DNA from: Bartonella taylorii 8TBB
GTDB taxonomy: Bacteria > Pseudomonadota > Alphaproteobacteria > Rhizobiales > Rhizobiaceae
Direction of reading: 5' to 3'
Assembly: GCF_902825155.1 (NCBI RefSeq)
Contig: NZ_CADEAG010000001.1
Location: 434,001 to 498,000 of the forward strand
DNA length: 64,000 nt
The notes beneath the pieces were generated by a model. It did no database searches. It had not been told where the DNA came from and was given only the letters and a program-made list of their open reading frames with translations. Of this stretch, positions 9,047-62,950 are shown piece after piece. How positions within the stretch are numbered: the first letter of the stretch is position 1; each line of letters begins with the position of its first letter. The position numbers and the translations under genes were made by a program.

Positions 9047-9061
9047 TAATGAAAAATATTT

Positions 9062-14265: not shown

Positions 14266-14267
14266 GT

Positions 14268-16474: not shown

Positions 16475-17100
16475 AATTTGCAATGTAATTTCTATTGTCT
16501 TCTCTATCTTAGTCATTAACATATAATTCTTTTATAAGAGAGAAATTTGTGAAGGTGAGGGTTGTCGTGGAATAGAGAGAATCTTTCCGTAAAAAAGTTT
16601 ATTCACGTGTTATTTTTTCGTACTATGTATAGTTATGTGCTGTAGAGATGCAAATAGGTATCCATTTTCCTCATCTCTTTTAATTCAACTTTACAGTTCT
16701 CTAAAGTCTCTACAGCGATATTTTAAAAACAGTGGAGATTGGATAGATGCCTCGTCTTTTTGTCTTTTGTGTTCTGTATTCAAATTGTTCATTGATATAC
16801 TTATTTGAAAGAGATCTCTTTCCTTGCTCCAAATCTTATCACGCGTGAGAATAGCACAATTTAAGATTGATAGGGTAGAAATATTATTATGCTTATGAAA
16901 GTACAAATCAATACTATCCATTATATTTATCAGTTTTCAATGTTGTATCTTCTCTTACATTGAAAGATTTCATAAGAGATATATTCTGCCTTTTCTCAAA
17001 CAGTTTTTATCTATACATCGCTTCTTGCTGTGACACGCAAGTAGTCATTTTTGGGGTTTCATCATAAGACGCGTTGAAGTGAGAAAATTTCACTGTGTTT
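16475..17100. other. Non-coding gap between gcrA and ccmG
   Basis: About 625 bp between convergent genes. The only frame over 60 codons (reverse strand, 16691-16921) has no recognisable features or ribosome-binding site. I see nothing else. Confidence 0.45.
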
Positions 17101-44262: not shown

Positions 44263-44277
44263 GGGTAAGGATGTACA

Positions 44278-47200: not shown

Positions 47201-47412
47201 CCATTTTAGGGGGTATACCCTTGGTTTTAGCAAAAGGTGCTGGTGCAGAAGCACGTATAGCTTTAGGTTGGGTTATTGTTGGTGGTTTGGGGTTGGCAAC
47301 TATTTTTACGCTTTATGTTACACCGGTTGTTTATCTTTTTCTCGGACGTTTTGTAAGAGCAAAAGCAGAAGAAGCTACACGCTTAACAAGAGAACTCAGC
47401 CAAGTTGAATGA
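44278..47412 (+). CDS. RND family efflux permease
   Basis: A proton-driven inner-membrane pump of the HAE1-type RND family. The 1044-residue chain has the duplicated six-span architecture with two large periplasmic loops. The proton-relay region in the fourth span is GLVLATGLVVDDAIVVLENI (about residues 402-421) with paired Asp residues, and GVMAKNGILIVEFADQLRDQ (about residues 930-949) marks span 10. The N-terminal FIRRPVFTFVLNAMIMIAG is typical. It forms an operon with the adaptor. No outer-membrane factor gene lies nearby, so a TolC-like channel must come from elsewhere. Drug or bile export is plausible but unproven. Confidence 0.93.
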   Translation: MSQEFSAKQPMVQMEQGGIIALFIRRPVFTFVLNAMIMIAGFAAWLNVDVRELPDVDTPVTTIMTIFAGASAETIDREITRVIEDTVSRVSGVKTISSTSSFGRSRVEVSFNVGVDLNVAASDIRDALSRVAYSLPKNADSPLIIKADSNAAAMMYLVVTSPTMSIDDLTTVVDDQIVDALSAVDGVGDVQVDSARTKIFQVDIDQAKLASYGLTVADISRVLADMTTDVPVGSLRNSKQALIVRATARLTTPEAFEQVVLKPHVHLGDVAHITLSPDVETVILRINGKTGIGLGIVRKAQSNTLNISEGVRAVVDNLKSVIPSSVHISVISDDALFIKSALHEVEVALVIAILSVILVIFLFLRDIRVTLIPTLSLPVALIGTIAAIYLAGFSLNILTFLGLVLATGLVVDDAIVVLENIVRWRNMGLGPRAAAVLGTREVFFAVLATTLTLVAVFVPISFLPGQVGALFREFGFVLAISILLSSVVALTLCPMLASRFLKEHVEGNKGETHHSIFLYKLGAFLSKGYAYSLHKCLGKPWTVVIVSLIFAGLCVGGYMKLQQELTPAEDRALIFLVINGPQGISTQYLNEQVEQIEASLKPLRDSGEIANSYSIAGIGGSPNTAFLVLLLSSWDKRVRSQQEIVKDVNTKVRQFPAVFVFAAQGNSLGVRGTGQGLQFAILGNDYTKLQPIADKLVRALQVDSHFIRPRLTVDATQPQFFIEINREKASDLGIDITNLGNTLQAMLDGKKIGSIYVDDHSYDVKLTSRRNPMKSPSDLENIFLKTKGNQYVPLSVIANLHEKAIAPQLKREKHMSAVILSANLAPGVVLGEAYQIVQKIASPLLSKGNYVVPLGEAATLDETSSNFMIVFGIAFVIILLVLAAQFESFVSGFIIMATVPLGIGCAVIAMLLSGVSLNIYSQIGLILLIGVMAKNGILIVEFADQLRDQGKGVREAVEEAANIRLRPVCMTMICAILGGIPLVLAKGAGAEARIALGWVIVGGLGLATIFTLYVTPVVYLFLGRFVRAKAEEATRLTRELSQVE

Positions 47413-47586
47413 TTTATGGGGAAGTTTTAAATTTTTTTATTTGCGTTTAAAAAATGTCGTTTTCGGATTTTATCTTTCCATTTTTGTACCCCTTCATTTT
47501 GTATATGAGCAGTAAAAATGACTGGTAATAAAGGAGACACTCTCTGTTTTATTATTGTTTATGCATAGATTTTATTGGCAATAACC

Positions 47587-49266
47587 GTGCGGGATCAGTT
47601 CATGGAAGATATCTTTTCAATTCGAAACGAAAAAGCTTTTGGGGAAGCTTTGAAAGCGTTAAGAAGACACGCCACAAAGGATGGGGTGAGTGATATCCGT
47701 AGGCATTTCTTAGAAGATCAGCAACGGTTTTCTCATTTTTCTTTAAGACTTGATGATCTCCTTTTCGATTTTTCGAAGTGTGGTGTAACATTTAAAACGT
47801 TGCAACTCCTAGATGATTTGGCTGTCGCAGCAGATGTATTAGGCAGGCGTGAGGCAATGTTTTCCGGTCAGGCCATTAATACAACTGAAAAGCGCTCGGT
47901 TCTTCATATTGCGCTACGTTTACCTGCTGACGAAGTTTTCATGTTGGACGGACATGATCTTGTCCAAGATATTCAGGATGTTCTTAAAGATATGGAAAGA
48001 TTTTCTGAAAGGGTACGTGATGGCAGCTATAAGGGAAACAGTGGCGAAAGAATAAATGATATTGTAAACATTGGTATTGGTGGCTCCGATCTTGGACCTG
48101 CAATGGTCACACGTGCTTTAAAACCATATCATGATGGTCCGCGTTGTCATTTCGTTTCTAATGCTGACAGTACGCATATTTCTGATACTCTCTCGGTTTT
48201 GAATCCAGCAACGACTTTATTTGTCATTGCCTCTAAAACTTTTACAACGGCCGAAACAATGGCAAATGCTCAAATTGCACGTCAATGGATTCACTCACAT
48301 TTGGGGGAAAAGGCTGTTTGCACGCATTTTGTTGCTGTTTCGAGTGCACTTGATAAAGTGGTGGAGTTTGGCATAGATTCTTCAAGAGTTTTTAGATTTT
48401 GGGATTGGGTTGGAGGGCGTTATTCAATTTGGTCAGCCATTGGCCTTGTTGTTATGTTAGCAATAGGGGGGCAGAATTTTCGCCAATTTCTGAAAGGCGC
48501 CTTGCAGATGGATCAACATTTTAAAGCGACGCCTTTGCATAAAAATATCCCTATTCGATTTGCTCTTTTAGGGTTCTGGCATCGTGTTATATGTGGTTAT
48601 TCATCACGTGCTATCATTCCCTATGCACAGCGTTTAGCGTGTTTTCCGGCTTATTTACAACAACTTGATATGGAATCAAACGGTAAGCAGGTTTCTTTGG
48701 ATGGCAAACCATTAACTTTTTCGAGTGGTCCGGTTGTTTGGGGTGATTCAGGGACAAATGGTCAACATGCTTTTTTTCAGCTTTTGCACCAAGGAACAGA
48801 TGTTATTCCTGTAGAATTTATTTTATTTGTAAAAGAACATGAGCAAAATTTACATCCTATGTATGATATGTTGGTAGCGAACTGCTTAGCGCAATCAAAG
48901 GCTCTCATGAAAGGGCGTAGTATTGAAGATACTCGGCGTATCCTAGTAAAAAATGGAATTGATAAATGTGAAACAGACAATTTAGCTCTTCACAGAAGTT
49001 TTGAGGGAAATCGCCCTAGTATTACGTTAGTTCAAGATTTGTTGACACCTTTTGCACTTGGTCGCCTCATTGCACTTTATGAGCATCGTATTTTTGTCGA
49101 AGGCGCTTTGATGAACATTAATTCATTTGATCAATGGGGTGTTGAACTTGGTAAAGAATTGGCAAATGAATTGTTACCAATACTCCGTGGAGAAAACAAG
49201 GCTGATAAACGCGATAGTTCAACATTAGGATTATTGGCACATATTCAGGCGAGACGTGCAAAATAA
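47587..49266 (+). CDS. pgi: Glucose-6-phosphate isomerase
   Basis: Pgi interconverts glucose 6-phosphate and fructose 6-phosphate. The protein has about 559 residues. Motifs are VNIGIGGSDLGPAMVTRALK near residue 160, the signature VGGRYSIWSAIGL near residue 276, the catalytic Glu in VVWGDSGTNGQHAFFQLLHQG-type sequence near residue 380, and the closing FDQWGVELGKELANEL. The start is uncertain: TTG at 47575, GTG at 47587 or ATG at 47602 are all in frame and none has a strong ribosome-binding site; I chose 47587 for length. It is a single gene, 174 bp after the RND pump. Confidence 0.93.
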   Translation: MRDQFMEDIFSIRNEKAFGEALKALRRHATKDGVSDIRRHFLEDQQRFSHFSLRLDDLLFDFSKCGVTFKTLQLLDDLAVAADVLGRREAMFSGQAINTTEKRSVLHIALRLPADEVFMLDGHDLVQDIQDVLKDMERFSERVRDGSYKGNSGERINDIVNIGIGGSDLGPAMVTRALKPYHDGPRCHFVSNADSTHISDTLSVLNPATTLFVIASKTFTTAETMANAQIARQWIHSHLGEKAVCTHFVAVSSALDKVVEFGIDSSRVFRFWDWVGGRYSIWSAIGLVVMLAIGGQNFRQFLKGALQMDQHFKATPLHKNIPIRFALLGFWHRVICGYSSRAIIPYAQRLACFPAYLQQLDMESNGKQVSLDGKPLTFSSGPVVWGDSGTNGQHAFFQLLHQGTDVIPVEFILFVKEHEQNLHPMYDMLVANCLAQSKALMKGRSIEDTRRILVKNGIDKCETDNLALHRSFEGNRPSITLVQDLLTPFALGRLIALYEHRIFVEGALMNINSFDQWGVELGKELANELLPILRGENKADKRDSSTLGLLAHIQARRAK

Positions 49267-49602
49267 GTGTAATTGAGCAGTTTTTTACACAGTGGAAAAG
49301 AAATTTATGAGATAGGAATGTATGATAATCGATTATTTTTATGCATATTTTTATCATTAATCTGCTATTTCTAATATTGGATTGTAACAGCAGAAAATCA
49401 AAAAAAAAGACAAAAAATCACAAAAATAAAAATTTGAAGCACATAATAGAGAAGGGTTTTAAAAACCTTTTAGGATCCTTTGAAATCCTCTTTAAAATTT
49501 TTTTAAAAATGAATTAGAGCAAAATCTGGTGACAAATTATATAAAATCTGTCAACAAGCTGCACTGCACTAAAGACATTTTAAAGAGAACTAGCGAACAC
49601 TT
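49267..49602. other. Gap between pgi and tRNA-Ser(CGA)
   Basis: About 335 bp of very AT-rich sequence with A- and T-runs around 49400-49510. No gene is seen. Confidence 0.45.
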
Positions 49603-49692
49603 TGGCGGAGAGAGAGGGATTTGAACCCCCGATAGAGTTACCCCTATGCCGCATTTCGAGTGCGGTGCTTTCAACCACTCAGCCATCTCTCC
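49603..49692 (-). tRNA. tRNA-Ser(CGA)
   Basis: A 90-nt class II tRNA with encoded CCA, read from 49692 to 49603. The acceptor is GGAGAGA, the anticodon arm CCGCA-CTCGAAA-TGCGG gives anticodon CGA, a long variable arm is present, and the T-loop is TTCAAATC. It reads UCG. Confidence 0.96.
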
Positions 49693-49796
49693 ATATAAAA
49701 GCGCGACAAAACTTTACATTATTTAAGTATATGGCGGGTAGATAACCTCCAATTGCTTTTAGTACAACCACTTTTTTGCTTTTTTGTGGGACTTTA

Positions 49797-49825
49797 TTGA
49801 CAGAGAACAGAAATTCCGTCATATA
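49797..49825 (+). promoter_or_regulatory. Predicted promoter of rplU-rpmA
   Basis: TTGACA, a 17-bp spacer and CATATA lie about 160 bp before rplU. Confidence 0.5.
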
Positions 49826-49982
49826 TGCGGGATGCAAGCGGGGAGAAATCCGTGCATGTTTGCGTTTAGGAAGGTATTTTTATCCTTCTTGAGATCCATT
49901 ACGACTGATAAAAAGCAGCCTATTTTCCTTTATTGACAAGGTGGAAATCAAATAAGAGCTGGAGTGAACGAAAGGATAAAAA

Positions 49983-50474
49983 ATGTTCGCAGTCATTAAA
50001 ACCGGTGGTAAGCAATATCGTGTTGTTGCTGACCAGATGATGAAAGTTGAGAGAATTATTGGAGATGCCGGTGATGTTGTTGAATTCAATGACATATTAA
50101 TGGTTGGGCAAGAAGGTAATGCGGTTATTGGTACGCCTGTTGTCGCTGATGCGTTGGTTACAGCTGAGATTGTAGAGCAAACACGTGGTCGTAAGGTTAT
50201 CGCGTTTAAGAAGCGCCGTCGTCAAAATTCGAAGCGCACGCGTGGTCATCGCCAAGAACTGACAACCCTTCGCATCTTAGAAATTTTAATGGGTGGTGCA
50301 AAGCCTAAAAAAGCAGCGACAAAATCAATTAAAGAGGAAGCTACTGCATTAGAAGAGGCGACAAAGGAAACAAAAGCACCTGCTTCTGTTAAGAAAGCGG
50401 CTAAAAAAACTGCTGAAAAAAAGGCTGCGCCACAGAAGAAAGCAACTGTAGCATCAAAGAGTAAAGAAAATTAA
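49983..50474 (+). CDS. rplU: 50S ribosomal protein L21 with Lys/Ala-rich tail
   Basis: L21 binds 23S rRNA in the large subunit. The first 103 residues are the usual protein, starting [20 protein letters not shown] and including [21 protein letters not shown] tail of about 60 residues rich in Lys, Ala and Glu follows, seen in other rhizobial L21 proteins and probably disordered. The ATG at 49983 follows a GGATAAAA sequence. It is the first gene of rplU-rpmA, with rpmA 11 bp later. Confidence 0.96.
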
Positions 50475-50485
50475 AGGAGAACTCC

Positions 50486-50755
50486 ATGGCACATAAAAAA
50501 GCTGGTGGTTCCTCGCGTAATGGTCGCGATTCAGAATCGAAACGTCTTGGCGTTAAAAAATTTGGTGGTGAAACCGTTATCGCTGGAAATATTATTGTTC
50601 GCCAGCGTGGTACGCGCTGGCACCCTGGTGATAATGTTGGCATTGGAAAAGACCATACCCTTTTTGCATTGTCAAATGGTACGGTTTCTTTTCAAAGAAA
50701 AGTGAATAACCGTTCCTATGTCTCAGTTGTTCCTATGGTAGAGGCAACAGAATAA
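50486..50755 (+). CDS. rpmA: 50S ribosomal protein L27
   Basis: L27 sits near the peptidyl transferase centre. The 89-residue chain begins [20 protein letters not shown] and carries [20 protein letters not shown], the family signature. It lies 11 bp after rplU with AAAGGAGA as ribosome-binding site. In rhizobia obgE and proline genes often follow; here a 1.4-kb non-coding stretch follows instead. Confidence 0.97.
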
Positions 50756-50823
50756 GCTGTATGTTCTTTTCATAAGCCGGTGTTTCGTTGGATTTCGGTT
50801 CTGAGATTATGAATTTTAGAAAG

Positions 50824-50852
50824 GAAAGATAGAGCGCTATCTTTCTTTTTTT
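50824..50852 (+). terminator. Rho-independent terminator of rplU-rpmA
   Basis: GAAAGATAG / CTATCTTTC, a 9-bp perfect stem with loop AGCG, is followed by seven T residues. Confidence 0.92.
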
Positions 50853-52165
50853 ACGTTGATGTCATAATAAAATGTAACAATATACAAAAAACTGAAAAGG
50901 CAAATTTGAGGCAATTATTTTCCTCAAATAACCAAAAGATTAGTGCTCTGTTTGGTATACACTGAGAATATTGACGTGATGATAGAATTTATCGATAAAT
51001 TTGTATGTGATAGTCATGAGAAAAGTTTTTTCTTTATGCACGAAAAAGCGTTAAATAATTTATTTTCGGGGAATTTGAGAGAAATTTGATGGAAGCATTT
51101 GCGCGATCGTTTTGGTAAAGATAAGCCAATTTGTTGGTGTCAATGGTTTTCATAATGTTTTTTAAACGGTTATGCATATTGATTAGGCTCTCTGTTTAGA
51201 AGAAAATAAGTATGTAAGAGAGATTATAAAAACATTGACCAAAGCTGTTTTGCAAATGATATGCGTTTAGGGAGCAATAAATCTAGAGTAAAATGACATT
51301 GCAAAGGATTTGGTTTGAGGCAATCGAAATGTCGGATGTGCAATCAGTAATATCAAGAGTATTTTTGAGTTATCTATTATGGAGCATTGTGAACATAAAC
51401 TCTATCAGTATTTAAAGGAAAAACATTTTTCATTTTGTAACTTTATTGATTTTATTTACCAGAGTATCTAGAAATTAAGGGTATGTGTGGCGTTTGGTTT
51501 GATTTTAGCTGTTTAGCATATGGTTTTTAGGTAGAGACACTTGGGTATGCAGCCAAAGAATATTTTGTGATTGCTATATTTACTTGAGAAAGAGAAAACC
51601 TACAATATCGTTAAGGTTATACCTTTAAGGTTTGATGTTATGAGACATTTAGCTACGTGGAGTTTTAAGAAGGTAGGCTACATGTAGAAATTTGTAATCC
51701 TGTAATAGATCAGAAAGAGGAAAAGGTGGGTTGCTCAGTTTAGGGGGATCAGTTAAAATGTCAGCTGAAGCTAGGGGTAATTGGGGAGGTGCTTTCTTGT
51801 ATGAGGAATAATGACAGGTTATATCAGATAACTTGAAATGATGGGAGCATTTTAAAAATAGCTTTTCAGTTAATTGGGTATGTAAAAAACAGAGTATTTT
51901 TCTTTGTGCAGTAAAGAGTGGGAATCAGATTGGCCTATAATGGTTTTAGGTTACTCGGGGGGCAGCGGTATCCAATTTTTTGATAGTTCATGTTGAGGTG
52001 TTTAAACGCCTTACTTAGATATTCCGTGCAAAAAAAGGAAAAGCATAGTGTTATTTATAGTTTGTATTTTGGGGAACGCTGCTTTGAAATGAAATTTATC
52101 AGACATGTTCATACTCAAATGTGAAGCAGTTTAAATTCATTATGAGATGTGAGGAAGTAGAAGCG
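50853..52165. other. 1.3-kb region without recognisable genes
   Basis: No open frame of useful length on either strand. One 17-codon frame at 51758-51811 (starting MSAEARGNWGG) has a strong AGGGGGA ahead of it but may be chance. The region presumably holds the promoter of the EIIA-HPr-EI gene. It may be an eroded gene block, since obgE often sits here in relatives, but I found no identifiable remnant. Confidence 0.45.
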
Positions 52166-54670
52166 ATGAATACAGATTTTAATGAAAGTGAAATCTTGTC
52201 TATAAGGTCTGTACAACTTGCAGCTGCTTTTGATCATAAAAATGATGCGATTCATGCTGCTGCTGAATTGCTTGTGCAAGTTGGTGCAGTTGATAAATCC
52301 TATCTGGCAAGCATGCTTAAACGTGAGGCAATAACGAATACTTGGCTTGGGAATGGTATAGCAATTCCCCATGGAATGGTTGAGAGTCGTAATTTAATTA
52401 TCAGAGATGCTGTTGCTGTTATACAGATTCCTGCTGGTGTTGAGTGGAGGGAAGGAAATAAAGCGCGTTTAGTTATTGCCATTGCAGCTTGTCCAGATCG
52501 CTATAGAGAGATTTGTAAACAATTGGCGTGTCTTTTGTTTGATAGAGAACGGCTTGAAGCACTTTTGACGACCGCCGATAAACAACAGATTGTTACAACT
52601 CTTTTTGGTCAGGATATGAAAATGGGGAAGACTTTTATAGGTGATCTTTCAGTGTGTCAGGAATGGACTTTAGATTATCCAAGTGGTCTTCATGCACGAC
52701 CAGCTTCTCTTTGGGTTGACTTTGCAAAAAAAGCTCAGAGCTCTATCAGGGTTCGGCATGGTCAGTATGCCGTTGAAATGAAAAATTTGGTTGGTTTATT
52801 GCAATTAGGAGCAAAAAACGGTGATGTTCTCATTTTTTCGACAGATGCTGCAGAAGGTGCGCGACTTCTTAAGGATGCGATTTCTGTTGTGAAGAAAGTA
52901 AGTGTAAGTGAAAAGTGTGTGATGAGAAGAATAGAATCTCAAACAAAGACTTTTCATGGTTGGTATCCGCGTTACAGACAAAAAAGTATTTCTGGTGTTG
53001 GAGCAAGTTCAGGGCTGGCTCTTGGCAAGATTTTTGTTTTAAAGCAAAATAATATTTCCATAATAGACCAGCCAACAGATTTTGCAGTTGGCGCGACATG
53101 TCTTGAAAGCGCTCTTACAAAGACAAAACAGAAAATGGCATTAGTTATTGCTGATATCACAGCGCGTATGGGGGCGGATTCTGCTGCGATTTTTTCTGCG
53201 CAAATGGTTTTGCTTGAAGATGAAGATCTGATAGCTCAAGTTTTTCGTTTTATGGCAGAAGGTCATGGTGTTGCTTGGTCTTGGGATAGGGCAGTTCGGC
53301 AATTTGCAGATATGTTTTCTAAGGTAGATAATCCTTTATTAGCGGCGCGTGCTGTCAATTTAATTGATGTTGGTCGTCGTGTCCTAGGCGAAATCAATCC
53401 ATCGTATAGATCATTCTTTTTAAATGATATTCCGCATGGTATTATTCTTGTTACAGATGATCTATCTCCTTCTGATGTAGCTCAGCTTGATTGTACAAAA
53501 GTGCACGGATTAGCAACGGCATGGGGAGGGCCTCTGTCTCATACAGCTATTCTGGCCCGTACCCTTGGTATTCCAATGGTTGTTGCTACGGGTGTGGATG
53601 TTTTAGCAGTTGAGTGTGATGTTCAAGCTATTATTGATGGCGATAATGGGTACATTTATCTTGATCCTGCTTCTGAAGATATTGAAAATGCCCAAAGGCA
53701 GATAAGTATGGTTGCGCAAAAGCGTAACAGTGAGATACGTATGTGTAGATTACCAGTGCAAACGACAGATGGCCAAAGGATCCGTATCATGGCTAATGTT
53801 AACTACACAAATCAGGTTCCTGTTGCACTAAATTTAGGGGCTGAAGGTATTGGACTCATGCGTACAGAGTTTTTGTTTTTAGATGGTCCACATATTCCAG
53901 ATGAAGAAGCACAATTTGATGTGTACTGCGCGATGATTGCAGCAGTAGGGGGTAAGCCATTAATTATTCGTGCACTTGATATTGGTGGGGATAAACAGGT
54001 TACGCATTTACGGTTATCTAAAGAGGACAATCCTTTTTTAGGCGTTCGAGGAACACGGCTTTTGTTACGTCGACGTGATCTTTTAATTCCTCAGTTGCGT
54101 GCTTTGTATCGAGCAGCAAAAGAGGGTGGAGATTTATGGATTTTGTTTCCAATGATTATGTCTGTTTCAGAGATTTTTGCTGTAAAAAAGATCGCAGAAG
54201 AAATTCGCAACGATATTGATGCGCCAAAATTAAAGCTGGGTATTATGATTGAAGTCCCAGCAGCAGCTATTATGGCAGATGTTTTGAGTGCTTATGTTGA
54301 TTTTTTCTCGATTGGAACCAACGACTTAACACAGTACACAATGGCTGTTGATAGACAAAATCCTTATCTTGTGTCTGAAGCCGATAGCCTTGATCCCGCG
54401 GTTTTGCGTATGATTTATCAGACTATTCAAGGTGCAGAAAAACATAAGTGTTGGGTTAGTGTGTGTGGCGGTATGGCTGGAGATCCTTTTGCAGCAATGA
54501 TTTTGACTGGATTGGGGATTAACGAACTTTCCATGATATCTTGTGACATTTCTTCGGTAAAAGCGTGTTTGCAGGCGCATAGTTTTGAAGACATGAAAAT
54601 TTTAGCAAAAAAAGCATTACAATGTGAAACTGCGCGAGCTGTACGCGCTCTTAGCGATGATATAAAGTGA
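52166..54670 (+). CDS. Fused PTS protein EIIA-HPr-EI (multiphosphoryl transfer protein)
   Basis: The protein should carry a phosphoryl group from PEP through enzyme I and HPr to an EIIA domain of the fructose/mannitol type. It has about 834 residues. EIIA (about 5-145) has the phosphorylated His in GIAIPHGMVE near residue 67. HPr (about 165-255) has SGLHARPASLWVDF with His near residue 178. Enzyme I (about 275-830) has the active His in GGPLSHTAILARTLGIPMV near residue 457 and PEP-binding LMRTEFLFLDGP and CGGMAGDP motifs. The ATG at 52166 follows GAGGAAG; upstream GTG and ATG starts are weaker. The layout matches FruB-type fusions, but no fruA or fruK is adjacent. Confidence 0.9.
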   Translation: MNTDFNESEILSIRSVQLAAAFDHKNDAIHAAAELLVQVGAVDKSYLASMLKREAITNTWLGNGIAIPHGMVESRNLIIRDAVAVIQIPAGVEWREGNKARLVIAIAACPDRYREICKQLACLLFDRERLEALLTTADKQQIVTTLFGQDMKMGKTFIGDLSVCQEWTLDYPSGLHARPASLWVDFAKKAQSSIRVRHGQYAVEMKNLVGLLQLGAKNGDVLIFSTDAAEGARLLKDAISVVKKVSVSEKCVMRRIESQTKTFHGWYPRYRQKSISGVGASSGLALGKIFVLKQNNISIIDQPTDFAVGATCLESALTKTKQKMALVIADITARMGADSAAIFSAQMVLLEDEDLIAQVFRFMAEGHGVAWSWDRAVRQFADMFSKVDNPLLAARAVNLIDVGRRVLGEINPSYRSFFLNDIPHGIILVTDDLSPSDVAQLDCTKVHGLATAWGGPLSHTAILARTLGIPMVVATGVDVLAVECDVQAIIDGDNGYIYLDPASEDIENAQRQISMVAQKRNSEIRMCRLPVQTTDGQRIRIMANVNYTNQVPVALNLGAEGIGLMRTEFLFLDGPHIPDEEAQFDVYCAMIAAVGGKPLIIRALDIGGDKQVTHLRLSKEDNPFLGVRGTRLLLRRRDLLIPQLRALYRAAKEGGDLWILFPMIMSVSEIFAVKKIAEEIRNDIDAPKLKLGIMIEVPAAAIMADVLSAYVDFFSIGTNDLTQYTMAVDRQNPYLVSEADSLDPAVLRMIYQTIQGAEKHKCWVSVCGGMAGDPFAAMILTGLGINELSMISCDISSVKACLQAHSFEDMKILAKKALQCETARAVRALSDDIK

Positions 54671-55119
54671 TATAGAGGCTTTAAGGGGGAAAGAGCTCGT
54701 TAGTCCTGTAATTTGGTAACACAATCACATTATAAATCATTTTTGTTGGAATAAGGTCTATTATCTCAGTAAAGCACGTTTTAATGTTGGTAAACAAGGT
54801 TTTAAGAGTTGCTTGTCCTATTTATTAGATATAATGAATAGTAATGGGTTAGTAGTGATGCTTAATTATCAATTTGAAGATGATGTTATTCATAAAATGT
54901 GAAGGTCTACAAATGGGCTAAGAGAATGGTTGTTTTTGTTGATTTAGTGATTGCATTTTGGATGCCTATCCACGGAAAAATCACTTCTTAAAAGGAGAGG
55001 AAGTGCTTGTTATTCAACGAGTATTACATCTTGTTTTAATAAATGAAGTTGTTTTTTAAATTTTGAATGTATAGTTTAGGCTTGCACGTTATTTCTTTCT
55101 GGGTATAGTGCGCAAATCT
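54671..55119. other. Gap between the PTS gene and tRNA-Ser(GGA)
   Basis: About 450 bp, no gene seen. A promoter for tRNA-Ser, TTGCAC-N16-TATAGT, lies at 55082-55109. Confidence 0.5.
55082..55109 (+). promoter_or_regulatory. Predicted promoter of tRNA-Ser(GGA)
   Basis: TTGCAC, a 16-bp spacer and TATAGT end 10 bp before the tRNA. Confidence 0.55.
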
Positions 55120-55209
55120 GGAGAGGTGGCCGAGTGGTTGAAGGCGCACGCCTGGAACGCGTGTATATGGGAAACCATATCGAGGGTTCGAATCCCTCTC
55201 TCTCCGCCA
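55120..55209 (+). tRNA. tRNA-Ser(GGA), left edge of the accessory region
   Basis: A 90-nt class II tRNA with encoded CCA. The acceptor is GGAGAGG, the anticodon arm CACGC-CTGGAAC-GCGTG gives anticodon GGA, and the T-loop is TTCGAATC. The accessory genes begin just after it, so it may have been an integration site. Confidence 0.96.
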
Positions 55210-55466
55210 GATTTTTTAAGGGTAACTTTTCTCATCGTCACCAAAAGTCATCATGTTGAGGAATCGCAGATGACAAAGCAATCCTGTAAATGGCTATATC
55301 GCCAGGCTCTTTCAGAGCTCGCGATGACGATTGAGAATCGTGCTTCGCTTTCTCGAATTGCGCCATTTTACCCTCTCCTTTTCCAATGCATGCGAACACT
55401 CCGATTGAGGGTACATATGTACTAAAACCATTGATTTACCTGAGTTTTTTGCGATAAGGCTTTTTT

Positions 55467-55847
55467 AACCCCTCATTTTTAGAGAACGAAAACCGGAGTA
55501 TTGCTTTTACGTTGGTGGAATAAACAAAGATTTATTGAGAAATAAAATTAACGATATACTACCAAATTATATGGTTCCTGCTTTTATAATTGCTATTGAT
55601 ATGTAGCCTTTAAACAAAAGTGGAAAAATAGATAAAGATCATTTGATCAGCACCTATAACGCAAAACCGTATTTTTGAAGAGCGAATTATTGCAATATGG
55701 TTTACGATATTGGAGAGTAACAATATCATCCGCGAGGATAAATTTTTTAGTATTGGCAGCGGATTTTTTTACAGCCCCATTATTAAAAGATCAATTAGGA
55801 ATGATGAGCAATTACAAGGAAAAAATGTTAAACAAATCAAAAATTGA
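55467..55847 (+). pseudogene. Remnant of a non-ribosomal peptide synthetase: end of adenylation domain plus carrier domain
   Basis: Not an open frame. From 55469 the frame reads an A-domain C-terminus: KPEYCFYVGG, then LPNYMVPAFIIAIDM, a TAG stop at 55604, then PLNKSGKIDKDHL. This matches the A10 region (LPxYMxP...PLxxxGKxDxxxL) of AMP-binding NRPS domains. After a T5 tract at 55672-55676 the frame shifts and reads EERIIAIWFTILESNNI, then REDKFFSIGSGFF, the outline of a peptidyl carrier domain (DxFFxxGGxS). The phosphopantetheine serine is missing and the frame stops at 55845-55847. Further stops precede the A-domain piece. Hence it is a dead 3' end of an NRPS gene, followed directly by the GNAT gene. 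Confidence 0.7.
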
Positions 55848-56634
55848 CTTATCGTTAGAGAATAACTTTTTTTCAAAGGTACGTTTTTTACCGAAATTAT
55901 GCCCTAAAATGAAGGTTGTTGATTTTCCAAATGGAGTATCTTCTGTTAATTCAACATTTGCTTCAGACACATTCAATATTGTCTCTGCTAAAAATTTACA
56001 AGAAACTATACCTGTAGACCAAGCAAAATCTATAATCGATTCCTTTAATGCACAAAAACTGCCTTTATCTTGGTGGGTTGGACCTCATTCGTCTAATTAC
56101 GAAGTTAATGAAGTTCTCTTATCTATTGGCTTAGAGCGTGTTGAAACAGAGGTAGGAATGGCAGCTTTAGCTCAAGATATAGACTCTCATGTTACTTCTA
56201 TGCTGGATGATTTCAAAATCAAGGAAGTTGAATCACTTCAAGATTTTATAGATTATGGAAATGTTATGGCATCAGTATTCGAGCCTTTTGATGAGGAGGC
56301 GATAATATTTTATGAAACAATAGGTGGCTGTTATAAAAAAGATCCTGATGTAGATATGTTCGTTGGTTATATAAATAACAATCCTGTAGCAATATGTTTT
56401 TGTATTAAAGCGGATGGAGTTGGTGGAGTGTATGATATTGTCACCAATCCAGATTTTCAGAAAAGAGGTGTCGGGACATTAATGACAAAAATGGCTATTG
56501 AGCATTTAAAAAGAAAGAAATGTCATGTTATTGGTATGCAAGCCTCTCACGAGGGAATTGGCATTTATAAAAAATTGGGTTTTATAAACTTTGGTGAATT
56601 CAAAGTTTATTCCAATAAACACATGGTAATTTAG
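55825..56634 (+). CDS. GNAT family N-acetyltransferase
   Basis: A protein of about 269 residues with a C-terminal GNAT domain (about residues 130-265). The acetyl-CoA loop is visible in VTNPDFQKRGVGTLMTKMAI (Q-x-x-G-x-G pattern, about residues 210-229), and YKKLGFINFGEF closes the domain. The first 130 residues form a second, weaker GNAT-like half with LSWWVGPHSSN. The frame is open from a TTG at 55675, but the upstream part overlaps the carrier-domain remnant; the ATG at 55825 has AAGGA 5 bases before it and overlaps the remnant's stop, so I place the start there. It sits between two NRPS fragments. It could tailor or detoxify a lost peptide product; the substrate is unknown. Confidence 0.8.
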   Translation: MLNKSKIDLSLENNFFSKVRFLPKLCPKMKVVDFPNGVSSVNSTFASDTFNIVSAKNLQETIPVDQAKSIIDSFNAQKLPLSWWVGPHSSNYEVNEVLLSIGLERVETEVGMAALAQDIDSHVTSMLDDFKIKEVESLQDFIDYGNVMASVFEPFDEEAIIFYETIGGCYKKDPDVDMFVGYINNNPVAICFCIKADGVGGVYDIVTNPDFQKRGVGTLMTKMAIEHLKRKKCHVIGMQASHEGIGIYKKLGFINFGEFKVYSNKHMVI

Positions 56635-56820
56635 CTATGAACTCTTTTTTGCTAATTTACAAGAGAATTTATTATGTTTAGCAGAACTCAAATATGGTCA
56701 ACCAATCTATAAAATCAAGGAATTTTGACCAATCTCCTTTAATACTGATATAGAAAAGCTAAAATCAGTTATTACAAATATAATTGTATCAAAAAAAGAT
56801 ATCTATCACAGATCCAATTT
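56633..56820 (+). pseudogene. Remnant of an NRPS condensation domain (N-terminal part)
   Basis: Starting over the GNAT stop, one frame reads SYELFFANLQENLLCLAELK, then YGQPIYKIKEF, a TGA at 56726-56728, then PISFNTDIEKLKSVITNIIV and SKKDIYH. This follows the start of NRPS condensation domains: Q-x-x-L-x-x-L-x-E-L, a YxI pair, a D-x-x-x-L-x-x-x-I helix and a (K/R)HxxL-like end. The HHxxxDG motif lies beyond the break, where the end of a reverse-strand gene cuts in. No start codon or ribosome-binding site is needed to explain it as a fragment. Confidence 0.6.
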
Positions 56821-57159
56821 GGACAAGCGAAATTTTTTATTTGATATGACTGACAATTTACAGTCTGTTGTTGGTCTTTCCTCCAGCATAAAAGAGCCAC
56901 TTCCTACAACACGGCATAGCGGTCCTGATTCTGAAGTAGTAACGGCTAGAGTTTCTTCTTTGCATGGGTAGAAACTGCGTAGACACCGTGTTAGATCTAT
57001 AAAATTTGCCTGATCTTTGACAGATATTTTTTGCCTTTTGGCACCATAAAAATAAGTAGATCTAACGGTGCCATATTGCGTTTGTGATCGGAGGTTGAAA
57101 ACTCTAAATTCTAATGAAACCACATAAAACGCTCGTGATAATGATAAATTAATATTCAC
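56806..57159 (-). CDS. Hypothetical protein, coupled to the MFS gene
   Basis: I do not recognise this 117-residue protein. It starts with a GTG at 57159 that overlaps the stop of the upstream MFS gene (GTGA), suggesting coupled translation. The chain is soluble, has four cysteines (including RSFYPCKEE and GPLCRVVGSGSFM) and no signal peptide or membrane span. Its 3' end lies against the condensation-domain remnant. It may be a real small protein of the same locus or a truncated piece of a larger one fused to a new stop by a deletion. Confidence is limited by the absence of any family match. Confidence 0.45.
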   Translation of the reverse strand: MNINLSLSRAFYVVSLEFRVFNLRSQTQYGTVRSTYFYGAKRQKISVKDQANFIDLTRCLRSFYPCKEETLAVTTSESGPLCRVVGSGSFMLEERPTTDCKLSVISNKKFRLSKLDL

Positions 57160-58310
57160 ACTGAGATCTTTTTTAGAGTTTCTTCTAAAAAGAACACTGC
57201 AAACAAGTAAATAAACAAATATATACCAAAAATGTAAATTAATGACAAAAAACCAAACATATTTACCATATACGCACTAAGGTAAAAAAATACCAATAGG
57301 CTCATCCTTCCAACAGTTGACAAGAAAGATTCGTATGTGGCCCTAAGATTATCGCTAATACTATCGTGCAGGACAACTTCTACACGAAGATATGTATACT
57401 TAATGAGATAAAAAATCATACAGACTAAAATAACAGCAATTTCTTTTTTGGGCTCAAAGAAAACAACTGTGAAAATTGTAGCCGCTGAAAGAACCAGCAG
57501 TAAAACAAAATTCATTCCTTCACTTAGTTTTGTAAAGAGAAAACTAGCCAGTAGCTGAGAGAGCAATATAAGAGAAAATGTCACACCAAGATAAAAATAA
57601 GTTACATTGATATCATAATCTTTAAATATCCACTGCCAATACTGCGAAAATATATTGGAAAAAATAAGGGAAAAATAAAAACATAGAGATATGTAAGGAA
57701 CTTTAACAAAAATAGATAACATTTCTCTTGCGTCAGAAATGAAAGAATTCGCTTTTATTGATTTTTTCTCTCCTTTTAGATCATCCAAAAAAAACAAACC
57801 AAAGATTGTTGTAATCATCATTAAAAATGCAGATATATACCATATATATTGGCTAGAATAATCGGCAAAATATGCGCCTATCAAACTAAATATAAACATG
57901 CCAATGTAATTATATTGAGAGCTGGAACCGAGCGCTTTTTTAGTAGATATAAATTTTGTTTTTGCATATTGAACAAGTAAAGCATTATAAGCACCAGCAA
58001 TCAATGTAAGCGATAATGCATTAAAAAGTTCTGCCAAAAGAAAACCATAAAAGCTTGTAGAAACTCCCATGAGAAAGAGCCATGTGGCTGCAAAAGCTGC
58101 TGCTAAAATTATAGATATTTTATAACTTTTTCTATCTGCAAAATATCCAAGAGGAATATCTGTAACCATCATAATAAAAGCTTGAAATGATTTAATTATA
58201 CCGATATCAATAAGAGTTAACCCTTTTTCAAGCATATAAAATACAATAAAGGCGCCTGTTAAAATCCTTATACCATTAAATAAAAATCCAAATGCTAATA
58301 TACTCTTCAT
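57156..58310 (-). CDS. MFS transporter
   Basis: A 384-residue major facilitator with about 12 hydrophobic segments. The cytoplasmic loop between spans 2 and 3 has the MFS motif A as GYFADRKSYK (about residues 55-64). The middle loop near residue 185 is Lys-rich (DDLKGEKKSIKAN). It is AT-rich in codon use compared with the core genes. It lies downstream of a ThiF-like remnant and is followed by the 117-residue gene. In microcin C-type loci an MFS exporter follows a ThiF-like adenylyltransferase, so export of a peptide product is one possible role; this is inference. The protein appears intact. Confidence 0.8.
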   Translation of the reverse strand: MKSILAFGFLFNGIRILTGAFIVFYMLEKGLTLIDIGIIKSFQAFIMMVTDIPLGYFADRKSYKISIILAAAFAATWLFLMGVSTSFYGFLLAELFNALSLTLIAGAYNALLVQYAKTKFISTKKALGSSSQYNYIGMFIFSLIGAYFADYSSQYIWYISAFLMMITTIFGLFFLDDLKGEKKSIKANSFISDAREMLSIFVKVPYISLCFYFSLIFSNIFSQYWQWIFKDYDINVTYFYLGVTFSLILLSQLLASFLFTKLSEGMNFVLLLVLSAATIFTVVFFEPKKEIAVILVCMIFYLIKYTYLRVEVVLHDSISDNLRATYESFLSTVGRMSLLVFFYLSAYMVNMFGFLSLIYIFGIYLFIYLFAVFFLEETLKKISV

Positions 58311-58351
58311 TTACGCACCAATAATACCAATAAAGTAATAAGTAAATTACT

Positions 58352-58528
58352 TTATATGAAGATATATAAATATGAAAAATTATATTTTATTACAAATATG
58401 ACACTAGCGGCTATACGGATCTCCAGTTCTATAATTTGACATTTGTCAAAATCCTTTAAATATTTTACTGCTTCAAGAGCAGCCAAAGAACCAGTAATCG
58501 TATTATATGGATCTATCAAAGTATTCAT
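58352..58528 (-). pseudogene. Possible remnant of a ThiF/E1-like adenylyltransferase (C-terminal end)
   Basis: A 58-codon frame on the reverse strand reads MNTLIDPYNTITGSLAALEA, then VKYLKDFDKCQIIELEI, and ends at a TAA 41 bp before the MFS gene. The GS-x-A-A-L-E-A-(V/I)-K-Y-L pattern is that of the last helix of ThiF/MoeB/E1-like proteins. The rest of the domain, including the ATP-binding loop and catalytic Cys, is absent. A strong AAAGGAGG lies upstream at 58572-58579 without a matching long frame; a TTG-started 11-codon frame (MSLFKILSKTI) ends in ATGA overlap with the remnant's ATG. The family call rests on one short motif. Confidence 0.45.
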
Positions 58529-58735
58529 ATAGTTTTGCTTAATATTTTAAATAAACTCAAACTTATTGATATCCTCCTTTGGTGATAGGTATTGATGACA
58601 AAAGATTGAACAGCGCTAAAATAAGGAATTTTGCTTTCTTAAATCGAATAAACTGAAAAACAAAATTGTAAAAAATATATGTTTTTAAATGCGTTACAAT
58701 ACATGCCAAATGACGTTTGTGCGAGGGGATAATTT

Positions 58736-59947
58736 ATGTTAACTGCAAATTTGAAAGAACGCATTGCTTTATTTGAGAATAGAACTTTTCTCTATTTTAC
58801 ATTGAGCGGCTTATTTGCTACATTTGGTAGTGGGCTGAATTACATCATATTGTCATGGCTCGCCTATAATCAGACAAATTCAATTCGCGGTGTGGCACTG
58901 CTGATGTTTTTTCTTTGGATGCCTAGTGTTGTTTTTGCGCCTGTTTTTGGTGTTTTGGCGGATAAATACGATCGTAAAATACAGATCATCATTTCAAACC
59001 TTGTCAGAGGTCTGGTGATCGTGGGTTGGGTAACACTTGGTCAGTTTGGCATAGAAATTAATTTAATGTTTTTATCTGCTCTCTTGGGTGTTTTTATCTC
59101 TTTTTATATGCCATCAGCTATTCCCTTAATCCAAAGTATTGTTCCGAAAAAACAGCTGATCAATGCGAATGCAACAATTGATATGGTCTATGAACTTGGT
59201 GCTATTATAGGTATGGGGTTAAGTGGATTTATACTTGCCTATGCAGGAACAAAAGGAGCCCTTTTGATAGGCGGCATACTCTTTATTATTGCTGGTTTGT
59301 TTAACTTTGTCATGAAGGTACCTAAAACGCGAGGATCTGAAAGCAAAAACCAGCAAAACTGGTGGGAAAGTTATATATCGTCACTTTGTTATTTTAAGCA
59401 GAATCCAGCTCTTTTTATGCCTTATATGAGCCAGATGATTATTATGGTTCTTTTGATGACTATTCCTGTTATTTTGGTTCCTTATACACAAGAGATTTTG
59501 AATGCGGATAGCTGGACCTTTGCAATATTGGAAGCGCTTTATTCAGCGGGCGTATTTACTGGTGCACTTCTTTCTCCATTTTTTTGTAAAGTTTTATCCA
59601 TAAGGAAAACATTGGCACTTTTATTAGCTGTTATGGCTATTGGTCTCCTCATTTTGTCTGTCAATACACACATTTTCATTGTTTTTCCTGTCTATTTCAT
59701 GATTGGATTTGGACTTTCGAGTTGGGCTCTTTCAATTTCTTTATCTCAACTCTATTGTAATCCTGAATATCAAGGAAGACTACAGGCAAGTTTTAATGGG
59801 ATCTCTGGTTTTTTTATTCTTGTGGTCTATCTATTTATGGCAAGTGATAGCAACGGCATCTCATCTCAGTCTGTATATTTTCTTCAAAGTATCATTGCTG
59901 CTGCTGGAATGCTCATCGTTCTTTTTTATAAAAATAAAAAACAATGA
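58736..59947 (+). CDS. MFS transporter, DHA3/EntS-like
   Basis: A 403-residue 12-span major facilitator. The start is ATG at 58736 with GAGGGG upstream. The spans 2-3 loop has GVLADKYDRKIQI (motif A) near residue 76, and an early Asn/Gln-containing LSWLAYNQTNSIRG loop is typical of the DHA3 branch, which includes macrolide exporters and the enterobactin exporter EntS. It diverges from the ThiF remnant/MFS pair. Several EntS-like proteins export peptides made by NRPSs, which fits the NRPS remnants 2-3 kb away, but drug export is equally possible. The protein looks intact. Confidence 0.82.
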   Translation: MLTANLKERIALFENRTFLYFTLSGLFATFGSGLNYIILSWLAYNQTNSIRGVALLMFFLWMPSVVFAPVFGVLADKYDRKIQIIISNLVRGLVIVGWVTLGQFGIEINLMFLSALLGVFISFYMPSAIPLIQSIVPKKQLINANATIDMVYELGAIIGMGLSGFILAYAGTKGALLIGGILFIIAGLFNFVMKVPKTRGSESKNQQNWWESYISSLCYFKQNPALFMPYMSQMIIMVLLMTIPVILVPYTQEILNADSWTFAILEALYSAGVFTGALLSPFFCKVLSIRKTLALLLAVMAIGLLILSVNTHIFIVFPVYFMIGFGLSSWALSISLSQLYCNPEYQGRLQASFNGISGFFILVVYLFMASDSNGISSQSVYFLQSIIAAAGMLIVLFYKNKKQ

Positions 59948-60101
59948 ATTGTATTTGAGAGCTGTAAACACTCTTCATACTACAAACATTTATGATTTCT
60001 CATCATCTCATATGTTGCTTTTAAAGTGGAGATAAGCAAATATCAAGGTTAAAGCTTTTAAAGAGTAAAGCATAAATCTGATGTGTGCTATAAAATGCTA
60101 G

Positions 60102-60377: not shown

Positions 60378-60525
60378 TTAAACGGTGAATACTCAGTTCC
60401 AATTCAAGAGATAAAGCCAAATCCACACACGATTTAAGCTCTTCTCCAATATCAAAACCGCGCTGGTAGTCGTCATAAAGACCAACAAGCGTATCGGATA
60501 ATTCTTTATCGCATGAAGAGGTCAT
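60256..60525 (-). CDS. Hypothetical protein, phage-like small gene
   Basis: An 89-residue acidic, helical protein with no family I recognise. The ATG at 60525 overlaps the stop of the upstream gene (ATGA) and has GGAGG 7 bases before it, so this start is favoured over the in-frame codon at 60555. The central part (LYDDYQRGFDIGEELKSCVD) is probably helical, followed by a run of Arg/Lys (LRRRKSF). It forms a pair with the 153-residue gene upstream. Small coupled genes of this sort next to an HTH regulator are common in Bartonella phage-derived regions; that origin is inference. Confidence 0.6.
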   Translation of the reverse strand: MTSSCDKELSDTLVGLYDDYQRGFDIGEELKSCVDLALSLELELSIHRLSETDTALQKEILQTLRRRKSFHSTEDETSTVIHMDFEEHK

Positions 60526-60983
60526 GCACATTCCTCCACATTGCGGTTGTTCCAAGCGGCTTTGATATGTTTAGACATCACTTCACTGTTATCACCAAGC
60601 ATTGCCATGTATATCAACATCCTAGTTTTGTCAATTTTGTGCAAAGCACTAACTTTTAAACCAATGCCTGTCAGAAACTTTATCGTTCTAGGATTTTCAA
60701 TTTCCCAATGACAAATACGTGCGGCAATGCCTTTATAAGGGAATTTGCAGCATTTAAGATACATTGTCAAACAGCTTTTAATTTGTGTGTAAGAGCGGCT
60801 GTTTTGACGATAGGTGAAATGTCCCAAGATTTCATCATTGCTAACCAAAGCCAAATTGGTGCCATTGATATCAACAATAAGCGAGCATGGCTTATAAACG
60901 TTTAGCCTTTGAATAAGAAATGATGACCTTATTTTTTGTAGAACATCAATTATCCTGCCTATTTTGTGTTGATTTTTAGACAT
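60522..60983 (-). CDS. Hypothetical protein, divergent from the HTH regulator region
   Basis: A 153-residue protein I do not recognise. The frame is open from 61061, but the ATG at 60983 (MSKNQHKIGRIIDVLQKIRS) is favoured because the same start region is copied in the downstream duplication. The middle has a beta-rich stretch (PCSLIVDINGTNLALVSNDE) and a basic CRICHWEIE-like region read as AARICHWEIENPRTIKFLTG. The C-terminus is helical. Several cysteines are present but no zinc-finger spacing is evident. It is coupled to the 89-residue gene. The function is unknown. Confidence 0.6.
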   Translation of the reverse strand: MSKNQHKIGRIIDVLQKIRSSFLIQRLNVYKPCSLIVDINGTNLALVSNDEILGHFTYRQNSRSYTQIKSCLTMYLKCCKFPYKGIAARICHWEIENPRTIKFLTGIGLKVSALHKIDKTRMLIYMAMLGDNSEVMSKHIKAAWNNRNVEECA

Positions 60984-61237
60984 TGATAAACCTTTTATCG
61001 TATGTAATATAAAAATGATGGGAAATGCGCTTAATACGCATGTCTTTGCAACGAGATTCAAGCAGCGTTATCGCGCAGTACAGAAGGATGAGAGAAACCG
61101 TATTGGGCTGTATTGCTGTTTTGGAAATGCGACCACGACTTTTAGAGTAGTGGTCGATAAAAATTTATTTGACGAGCAAACCGATAAAATCGGCAATGGC
61201 ACGTTCAGCTTTTTCGTTAAGCTGTGTTCAAATATTT

Positions 61238-61497: not shown

Positions 61498-62028
61498 TTG
61501 GCACGTCGAGAAGCAAAGCCTAAAACCGAGTTGGCAAAACGTTTTCGTGAAGTGCGCCGCGCTCTTGGTTTCACGGAGCGTAAGCAGTTTGCTGAACATC
61601 TTGGTGTAACGGCTGGTTCCATAGGAACTTATGAAACTGGTACAAGTGAACCTACGGCTTCCGCTCTCTCAAAATATCAAGAAATTTGTGGCATTTCATT
61701 AGACTGGCTTGTAACTGGTAATGGTGAAATGTTTATGGATATAGCCAAGGCAAAAACGTGTGGTTTTAAACCGCAAGGGATTCCTGCTGGGTTGATGAAA
61801 AAGCTCGGGTATTTGGTCTATACGGCTTATCATGATGCGCAAAGAGAACTTCCTCCTGAAGATATAGCGGAATTAGCAGCAGAGCTTTATGGCAAGCTGC
61901 AAGAGCTCATTCAAAACATCCACGATATGGAAGAAGTTGAAGCGACCTTTCCGCTTTTAAAATTACATTTAAAACGTCAAATTGAAGCTGAAAAAGCACA
62001 TCGAGCAACTCCACAAGATACGGACTAA
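61498..62028 (+). CDS. HTH (XRE-type) transcriptional regulator, Trp-like, copy 1
   Basis: A 176-residue regulator. The N-terminal helix-turn-helix domain (about residues 10-75) reads FAEHLGVTAGSIGTYETGTS around the recognition helix and ends LDWLVTGNGEMF, typical of phage-repressor-like XRE proteins. The C-terminal part (about 85-176) is helical, has PQGIPAGLMKKLGYLVYTAY, and is not a peptidase. The start is TTG at 61498 with GGAG 8 bases before it. It follows a ~200-nt leader RNA candidate and a perfect palindrome. A paralogue lies 347 bp downstream. In B. henselae the comparable Trp proteins affect badA expression; an adhesin gene lies 1.8 kb downstream here. Confidence 0.85.
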   Translation: MARREAKPKTELAKRFREVRRALGFTERKQFAEHLGVTAGSIGTYETGTSEPTASALSKYQEICGISLDWLVTGNGEMFMDIAKAKTCGFKPQGIPAGLMKKLGYLVYTAYHDAQRELPPEDIAELAAELYGKLQELIQNIHDMEEVEATFPLLKLHLKRQIEAEKAHRATPQDTD

Positions 62029-62371: not shown

Positions 62372-62414
62372 ATAATGCAAATATTGCATAATGTCAACGC
62401 AATATTTGTATTAT
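62372..62414. promoter_or_regulatory. 16-bp inverted repeat before HTH gene 2
   Basis: ATAATGCAAATATTGC (62372-62387) and GCAATATTTGTATTAT (62399-62414) pair at 15 of 16 positions, the exception being a G-T, with an 11-nt spacer. It lies at the same place as the repeat before copy 1 but differs in sequence. Confidence 0.75.
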
Positions 62415-62422
62415 TGTATAAT

Positions 62423-62950
62423 TTGGCAAAAAAAGAGATTGAACCAAAAACAGAACAGGCGAAGCGGTTACGTTTGATACGAAAAAGCTTACAACTTCAT
62501 CGGGATCAGATAGCTGTTCGTTTGGGTATTAATAAGGCGATTTATGACCACGCTGAAAGAGGCACAACCTTTCCCAATGTGGAATTTTTGGCTGCTTTAT
62601 CACAGAAATTAAAAGTCAATTTAACCTGGCTCATTACGGGTGAAGGTGAAATGTTTACAAATGCGGGAAAGGCGAAAGCGTGTGGTTTTAAACCGCAAGG
62701 GATTCCTGCTGGGTTGATGAAAAAGCTCGGGTGTTTGGTCTATACGGCTTATCATGATGCGCAAAGAGAACTTCCTCCTGAAGATATCGTGGAATTAGCA
62801 GCAGAGCTTTATGGCAAGTTGCAAGATATTGTTCAAAACATTAACGATATAGAAGAGGTTGAAGCAACCTTTTCGCTTTTAAAGTTACATTTAAAACGTC
62901 AAATCGAAGCTGAAAAAGCACATCGAGAAACTTCACAAGATACGGACTAA
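62423..62950 (+). CDS. HTH (XRE-type) transcriptional regulator, Trp-like, copy 2
   Basis: Paralogue of the regulator at 61498, 175 residues from the TTG at 62423, which aligns with the TTG start and length of copy 1 and leaves the palindrome upstream. An ATG at 62375 with AAGAGG before it is also in frame and would add 16 residues; I cannot exclude it. The HTH domain (VRLGINKAIYDHAERGTTF near the recognition helix) differs strongly from copy 1, while the C-terminal ~95 residues are nearly identical (PQGIPAGLMKKLGCLVYTAY). Residues LTWLITGEGEMF close the HTH part. It should act as a DNA-binding regulator of a distinct target site. Confidence 0.83.
   Translation: MAKKEIEPKTEQAKRLRLIRKSLQLHRDQIAVRLGINKAIYDHAERGTTFPNVEFLAALSQKLKVNLTWLITGEGEMFTNAGKAKACGFKPQGIPAGLMKKLGCLVYTAYHDAQRELPPEDIVELAAELYGKLQDIVQNINDIEEVEATFSLLKLHLKRQIEAEKAHRETSQDTD

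Follow-up and report, generated by a model that had tools for sequence, protein, structure and literature searches.

The DNA that follows the tRNA-Ser(GGA) gene in this part of the Bartonella taylorii 8TBB genome, analysed here as a window of 64,000 nucleotides, is very probably what remains of a horizontally gained hybrid NRPS-PKS cluster, whose synthetases have decayed and whose GNAT-family acetyltransferase survives in some species as a probable means of self-protection. The intact counterpart was found in Holospora curviuscula NRB217, a symbiont of Paramecium bursaria, on contig NZ_PHHC01000100.1 (21,492 bases). It was discovered through a pattern-based scan derived from an alignment of seven Bartonella copies and applied to one genome per species, covering 84,980 species, which returned 12 loci: 11 in Bartonella and the single H. 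curviuscula contig. According to Pfam, this contig carries, all in open frames, genes for MFS, A-PCP, GNAT, C, KS-AT-KR-ACP, KS-KR-ACP, A-PCP-C-A-PCP, KS-ACP, a thioesterase and a phosphopantetheinyl transferase. Window positions 55498-56874 align to the cluster with 82-83% DNA identity, and the gene order A-PCP, GNAT, C is identical in both, the GNAT reaching 89% in protein. The Holospora cluster, however, is intact and complete, whereas the window keeps only the A-PCP end, the GNAT and the C start.

The left border of the inserted stretch is the tRNA-Ser(GGA) gene (55120-55209, plus strand), as located by ARAGORN. It is followed by a piece called here segment E (55210-55500), which also forms the left-hand piece at the relic locus of six further Bartonella genomes; G034 has its first part only. 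Part of segment E (55364-55501) matches two H. curviuscula contigs, C121 at 75% and C114 at 71% (E 3e-18 and 3e-12 against 13 fetched Holospora pieces), and its first bases, at the tRNA end, recur on C114 and on the cluster contig of Holospora, at its right end. The flanking DNA, beyond the genes alone, is therefore tied to Holospora. Near the E-like flank of C114 (L157), a recombinase-like ORF (3-1090) and what resembles a tryptophan-pathway cassette (3971-9452) were recognized by eye.

To the right of segment E, and all on the plus strand, lie the NRPS relic (55498-55824), the GNAT gene (55825-56634) and the relic of the start of a condensation-domain gene (56645-56878). For the latter, tblastn gave 55% over 96 aa (E 1.7e-19), with the DNA match extending up to 56874. 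The right-hand flank is an MFS transporter gene (58736-59947, plus strand) that is absent from the Holospora cluster, and the Holospora MFS had no tblastn match in the window. Another MFS gene (57156-58310, minus strand) is placed between the relic and the right flank; a close copy of it occurs elsewhere in several genomes of the genus, and both were present in G036 and G065 among the matches listed. Beyond the flank, the C-terminal domain of a Mu B transposition protein was detected at 60522-61061 on the minus strand (31 bits against 25), and two adjoining ORFs, helix-turn-helix-like by eye (61498-62028 and 62375-62950), share near-identical C-terminal parts, which constitutes a local duplication. 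Rfam applied to 54670-58800 returned only tRNA above cut-off, sX4 and Plastid-psbl-rps4 remaining below theirs, and promoter-like sites within 55100-57000 numbered 8 against 7.3 expected, with no excess around the GNAT gene.

The segment 55498-55824 was confirmed as the decayed end of an A-PCP gene, comprising the adenylation end (A10) and the carrier domain. The preliminary description had quoted from it LPNYMVPAFIIAIDM, a stop and PLNKSGKIDKDHL in one frame, and EERIIAIWFTILESNN and REDKFFSIGSGFF in another, and these peptides were all recovered. Its view that an NRPS gene once ended at this site was borne out by the intact Holospora A-PCP homologue, which aligns by tblastn in three pieces (E 1.2e-35) with 67-81% protein identity (81% at residues 389-447), and the DNA is 82% identical across 55498-55775. 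The reading frame of the relic is interrupted by one stop codon (55604-55606) and two frame changes; compared with Holospora, it has lost 14 bp and 68 bp. According to the alignment, the frame change previously ascribed to a slip at a T5 tract is really the 14-bp loss; similarly, the motif 'SIGSGFF' was rightly taken as carrier-domain sequence but is a fusion of two domain ends over the 68-bp loss. With those 68 bp gone and with no PP-binding match, what is left is a relic of a carrier domain and not a working one. In other Bartonella, the loci L083 and L084 keep the second missing stretch, but contain stops themselves.

Profile searches had also been proposed as a check on this assignment, with the absence of a hit above threshold to count against it. 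Since the Pfam results stayed below cut-off, with AMP-binding_C at 16.8 bits against a gathering score of 24.5 (E 0.013) and no match for PP-binding, that check taken by itself would have spoken against an NRPS. The A10 piece nevertheless matched, in phmmer searches of PDB chains, linear gramicidin synthase (E 2.4e-7, two weak stretches summed) and CmnG (E 3e-6), which together with the Holospora match identify an adenylation C-terminal subdomain with its A10 motif. The top NCBIfam model was the AusA NRPS (E 9.7e-8, far under the whole-protein cut-off), and the DltA and acyl-CoA ligase models matched weakly too. The identity of the A10-like piece is settled by the alignment of the intact Holospora homologue. 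As for the rest of its own genome, a profile search found no condensation domain, and the one AMP-binding protein is an acetate-CoA ligase; across the genus, PF00668 gave a single sub-threshold scrap, located within the condensation relic of G040.

In the window, the GNAT gene starts with an ATG after AAGGA and encodes an intact protein of 269 aa (Pfam Acetyltransf_1, 4.1e-10). Its acetyltransferase domain (PF00583, 40.4 bits against 20.7) shows no stop or frame change in relation to Holospora, and the protein is 88.8% identical to the Holospora GNAT over 269 aa (tblastn, E 9.3e-168). It contains the acetyl-CoA loop, QKRGVG. Across the genus, 26 of the 71 genomes examined have a GNAT protein match, which is stop-free over its length in seven (G000, G016, G017, G018, G027, G028 and G054) and broken or partial in the other 19. 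Checked against Holospora, six of the stop-free copies are without frame change; the seventh, that of G016, lacks three bases in all, through two small deletions.

The intact copies are under constraint and at least one broken line is drifting. The 21 pairs formed by the seven intact GNATs gave dN/dS values of 0.135-0.273, and the same copies compared with Holospora gave 0.091-0.151, with dS of 0.57-0.73. By using a stricter codon filter, the median for intact pairs was 0.195 (0.138-0.306), and 136 broken-copy pairs had a median of 0.273 with a range (0.163-0.860) that overlaps that of the intact pairs; G065 and G037, which are fragments only, were left out of this summary and of the GNAT tree. 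When the intact G017 copy was paired with that of its sister G056, which is broken, dN/dS was 0.83. Because the broken copies also show low dN/dS, at least some of the signal, and perhaps much of it, may have arisen before the decay set in, or it may come from an unsampled donor pool. Selection may have acted on the gene during its time in Bartonella.

The role of this enzyme is suggested by its setting. In the proposed mechanism, the A-PCP and ketosynthase modules would build a small peptide-polyketide, possibly an antibiotic, which the thioesterase would free and the MFS protein would export. The GNAT would most likely act within the cell by N-acetylating the product or one of its late precursors, leaving the producer unharmed, in the manner of PamZ and paenilamicin. 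In Bartonella, the assembly-line genes would have been lost or broken, and the GNAT would have stayed intact in some species, probably as an orphan self-protection against the same compound released by neighbours, with the gene itself decaying in most other Bartonella. A different role is possible, if somewhat improbable, namely that of a biosynthetic enzyme which acetylates or loads a building block, its survival then being due only to slower decay or to an unrelated new function. In Holospora the gene is placed between two assembly-line genes, as a tailoring gene could be, and the patchy intactness (7 of 26) and the low median of the broken copies also agree with such a role. However, the Pantoea homologue described below stands beside an exporter and a peptidase, outside the modules, and the intact pairs have the lower median dN/dS, albeit with overlapping ranges, next to the high value of the G017-G056 pair.

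The spread of the relic was assessed by searching 71 Bartonella genomes with the leading 20 kb of the Holospora contig, and 34 of the genomes matched. In 29 of them the pieces fall within Holospora 3204-6337, which covers A, PCP, GNAT, C and the first PKS1 bases, and the other five have only short adenylation stretches (Holospora 13790-17035). The MFS gene, PKS1 past its start, PKS2, the second NRPS and the last KS were not found at the DNA level in the 71 genomes, the exceptions beyond Holospora 6337 being conserved adenylation motifs and one 27-base match. Before Holospora 3204 there was no match in these genomes, and the thioesterase and PPTase genes, which fall largely beyond those 20 kb, had no tblastn match in 27 stretches. 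Because the remaining cluster genes left no trace, transfer of a cluster fragment alone is possible. NRPS genes had been described earlier as atypical for Bartonella; the relic itself is not unusual in the genus, given its pieces in 29 of 71 genomes. Horizontal gain followed by loss, as first suggested, stands as the best reading of the relic, which has an intact homologue in Holospora and is decayed here. Outside the genus, among 385 genomes sampled from the class, the Holospora GNAT found matches in only six besides G000, at 24-29%. A DNA-level plasmid search with window 55300-60100 gave no match, and viral contigs searched with GNAT and PKS1 yielded no relative.

It was also found that the relics occupy more than one genomic site. 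Sites were compared for 25 relic loci available as long oriented stretches, G051 and G067 lying outside this set for both sites and dN/dS. In 11 of the 25 loci, a tRNA-Gly(GCC) gene precedes the carrier-domain end by 0.4-0.9 kb, and the tRNA-Gly insertions are situated about 345 bp past the tRNA. A tRNA-Ser(GGA) gene is close upstream in four of the 25, as well as in the window; tRNA-Ser(CGA) and tRNA-Ser(GCT) account for one locus each, and in the remaining eight the tRNA is absent or distant. In G030 the pieces lie 3.3 to 6.5 kb past tRNA-Ser(GGA), with no GNAT match there. In the locus L083 (557-5762) of G036, the stretch bounded by two tRNA-Ser genes is apparently inverted in comparison with the window, and the relic and segment E are for that reason at tRNA-Ser(CGA).

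Empty sites were recognized for both main locations. There is at least one for tRNA-Ser, in G033, where the distance from the tRNA end (55209) to the MFS flank (58996) is 227 bases, and there are at least two for tRNA-Gly, as the sides of the G040 insertion are 73 bases apart in G070 and 60 in G001. Among the matches listed, many from the genus stop at window position 55209, which supports an insertion right after tRNA-Ser. A duplicated attachment site at the tRNA end was not seen, the 15-bp tRNA end occurring once in the 64-kb window.

The history of the GNAT was compared with that of acs, the sole yardstick gene, checked as an acetate-CoA ligase in G000. In a Mantel-like test with the 18 relic genomes that have an acs locus, the GNAT and acs distances were unrelated (r 0.07, permutation p 0.31), some GNAT distances being inflated by broken copies. 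The same was observed within groups, with r 0.05 for ten genomes of the tRNA-Gly group and r 0.22 (p 0.10) for the other eight. G036 and G054 are only 3.0% apart in GNAT, in comparison with 14.8% in acs, and in ten pairs compared the GNAT dS was 0.23-0.88 of the acs dS. The simplest reading is that the gene passed from one Bartonella species to another or was acquired repeatedly; the GNAT tree is unrooted and does not distinguish donor from recipient. A single old acquisition in a Bartonella ancestor, followed by vertical descent, traceless loss in 42 of 71 genomes and moves by rearrangement, seems unlikely to us. The tRNA-Gly site common to 11 of the 25 long loci and the tRNA-Ser(GGA) site common to four and the window would suit it, as would G036, which indicates that tRNA-Ser genes are able to recombine, but it is opposed by the low correlations, obtained with one yardstick gene, and by the dS ratios.

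The argument relies on the Holospora contig, and it is quite improbable that this contig is a contaminant or a misassembly from an unsampled Bartonella, which would make the intact cluster really a Bartonella one. Its 4-mer signature slightly favours Bartonella (0.832, with 0.794 for Holospora) and falls outside 11 Holospora control pieces (0.863-0.941); however, it is also under the values of ten Bartonella control pieces (0.853-0.961). The contig is moreover tied to its assembly by shared repeats: in a search with the first 20 kb, its first 195 bp were found again at 12 places, distributed over 11 other contigs, with 99-100% identity, the part 195-1362 has paralogues of 82% and 78%, and the right end is 84% identical to C114 over 198 bp (against 13 fetched pieces). 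It contains no N letters. When window 44000-56700 was searched against the Holospora assembly, it matched the cluster and, twice, in segment E; upstream of these, the matches were the tRNA (86%) and stretches of 88-206 bases at 67-77%, with 30- and 39-base matches (93% and 87%) at or just past the tRNA-Ser end. Since the Bartonella DNA ahead of the relic (11 kb) matches this assembly only in short or tRNA-related stretches, bulk contamination is unlikely.

GC content is 33.7% for the contig and 33.0% for the cluster, with sampled-piece means of 37.7% in Holospora and 36.7% in Bartonella, and third-position GC is 0.23-0.28 in the cluster genes, with long-ORF means in sampled pieces of 0.284 and 0.283, respectively. 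These values, together with the 4-mer signature, weakly suggest that the cluster is foreign to Holospora and Bartonella alike. Finally, a chance match or a non-NRPS adenylating enzyme (DltA, acyl-CoA ligase) as the source of the A10-like peptide, to which the sub-threshold Pfam scores and the weak DltA and acyl-CoA ligase matches might point, has a negligible probability and was excluded by the DNA and protein alignment to Holospora, where the 82% identity is to an A-PCP gene that scores 135.7 bits for PF00501 and 31.1 bits for PF00550 and has the same neighbours.

No publication on the relic or on the Holospora cluster was found in a search that most subscription journals fall outside, and the accessible portions of PMC5911502, PMC10132079 and PMC11909080 do not report either of them. 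In the H. curviuscula genome paper, antiSMASH is named in the methods, and the words nonribosomal, non-ribosomal and Bartonella are absent from the main text (PMC5911502). Other possible biosynthetic loci were noted in the genus. One of them (L106 in G032, 3509-17660, minus strand) is a phenazine-like gene set and a possible secondary-metabolite cluster, with the PhzF family above cut-off (163.7 bits), a PhzG-like protein below it (189.8 bits against 270) and, also below their cut-offs, anthranilate/isochorismate-synthase-like, isochorismatase-like and EmrB-like exporter proteins and an amino-acid adenylation protein. Another (L107 in G021, 4196-14287, plus strand) has genes for an SDR, a carrier, a ketosynthase, a methyltransferase, a citrate-synthase-like protein and two AMP-binding-like proteins, one of them below cut-off. 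In G059, one contig has three AMP-binding matches (L104 and L105) that fall within about 20 kb and are perhaps a further biosynthetic cluster.

That the GNAT proteins of a Bartonella and of a bacterium from another order, living in Paramecium nuclei, are 89% identical points to exchange between the lineages, which, to our knowledge, are not known to share a host. A broader scenario can be put forward tentatively, in which bacteria dwelling in protists and arthropods exchange a mobile NRPS-PKS antibiotic cluster, and Bartonella lineages gained it repeatedly, dropped the costly synthesis genes and kept the acetyltransferase as an orphan immunity against producers in shared hosts or vectors. The analysis names an intact Holospora biosynthetic cluster, for which no study was found, and provides a candidate self-protection enzyme, so that it becomes directly testable whether Bartonella has retained immunity to an antibiotic of a symbiont.

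Among known systems, the closest functional precedent is PamZ, which, according to the accessible part of its description, N-acetylates and so protects the paenilamicin producer and is coded in the paenilamicin cluster (PMC9054821). For odilorhabdin, an acetyltransferase self-resistance locus is described in the part of the source available (PMC8749412). The likeness to PamZ consists in a GNAT of about 270 aa within an NRPS-PKS cluster (PMC9054821, as far as accessible), a location observed in both Holospora and Pantoea. In Foldseek, PamZ (7b3a) ranked 12 against the GNAT (E 4.3e-5), one of 116 matches with E <=0.001, but the TM-score was only 0.37 on a poor GNAT model (pLDDT 47.4). PamZ was absent among the sequence matches shown and among the 50 VIA-align entries listed, the latter obtained with the poor model. 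As to the two-domain trait of PamZ, with its inactive first domain, the structure matches listed for the poor model cover mainly residues 100-265. Fold searches with this model indicated the GNAT fold only, and the top sequence matches among solved structures were entries without an assigned function.

Another protist symbiont provides a wider context, as the accessible text of PMC10132079 describes NRPS/PKS systems in Ca. Megaira. A match on a Ca. Megaera plasmid was set aside, as it is a GNAT-like piece in two frames with no other Holospora cluster protein within 20 kb. The plasmid cluster of Pantoea sp. JZ29 and P. ananatis OC5a, in contrast, has the same module order as the Holospora cluster, with KS-AT-KR-ACP and KS-KR-ACP (Pfam), followed by an NRPS, a polyketide synthase and an alpha/beta hydrolase, as well as GNAT, MFS and PPTase genes (annotation and tblastn). 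It differs in its protein identity, which is about 39% at best, in ketosynthase stretches, in its extra M42 peptidase and TauD genes, and in the position of the GNAT beside the exporter: on the Pantoea plasmid, GNAT, M42 peptidase and MFS gene adjoin, and the GNAT is 27-28% identical to the one described here. Because of the PamZ and odilorhabdin precedents and of this Pantoea GNAT beside an exporter, the acetyltransferase of the Bartonella relic probably served, by analogy, to protect the producer through N-acetylation.
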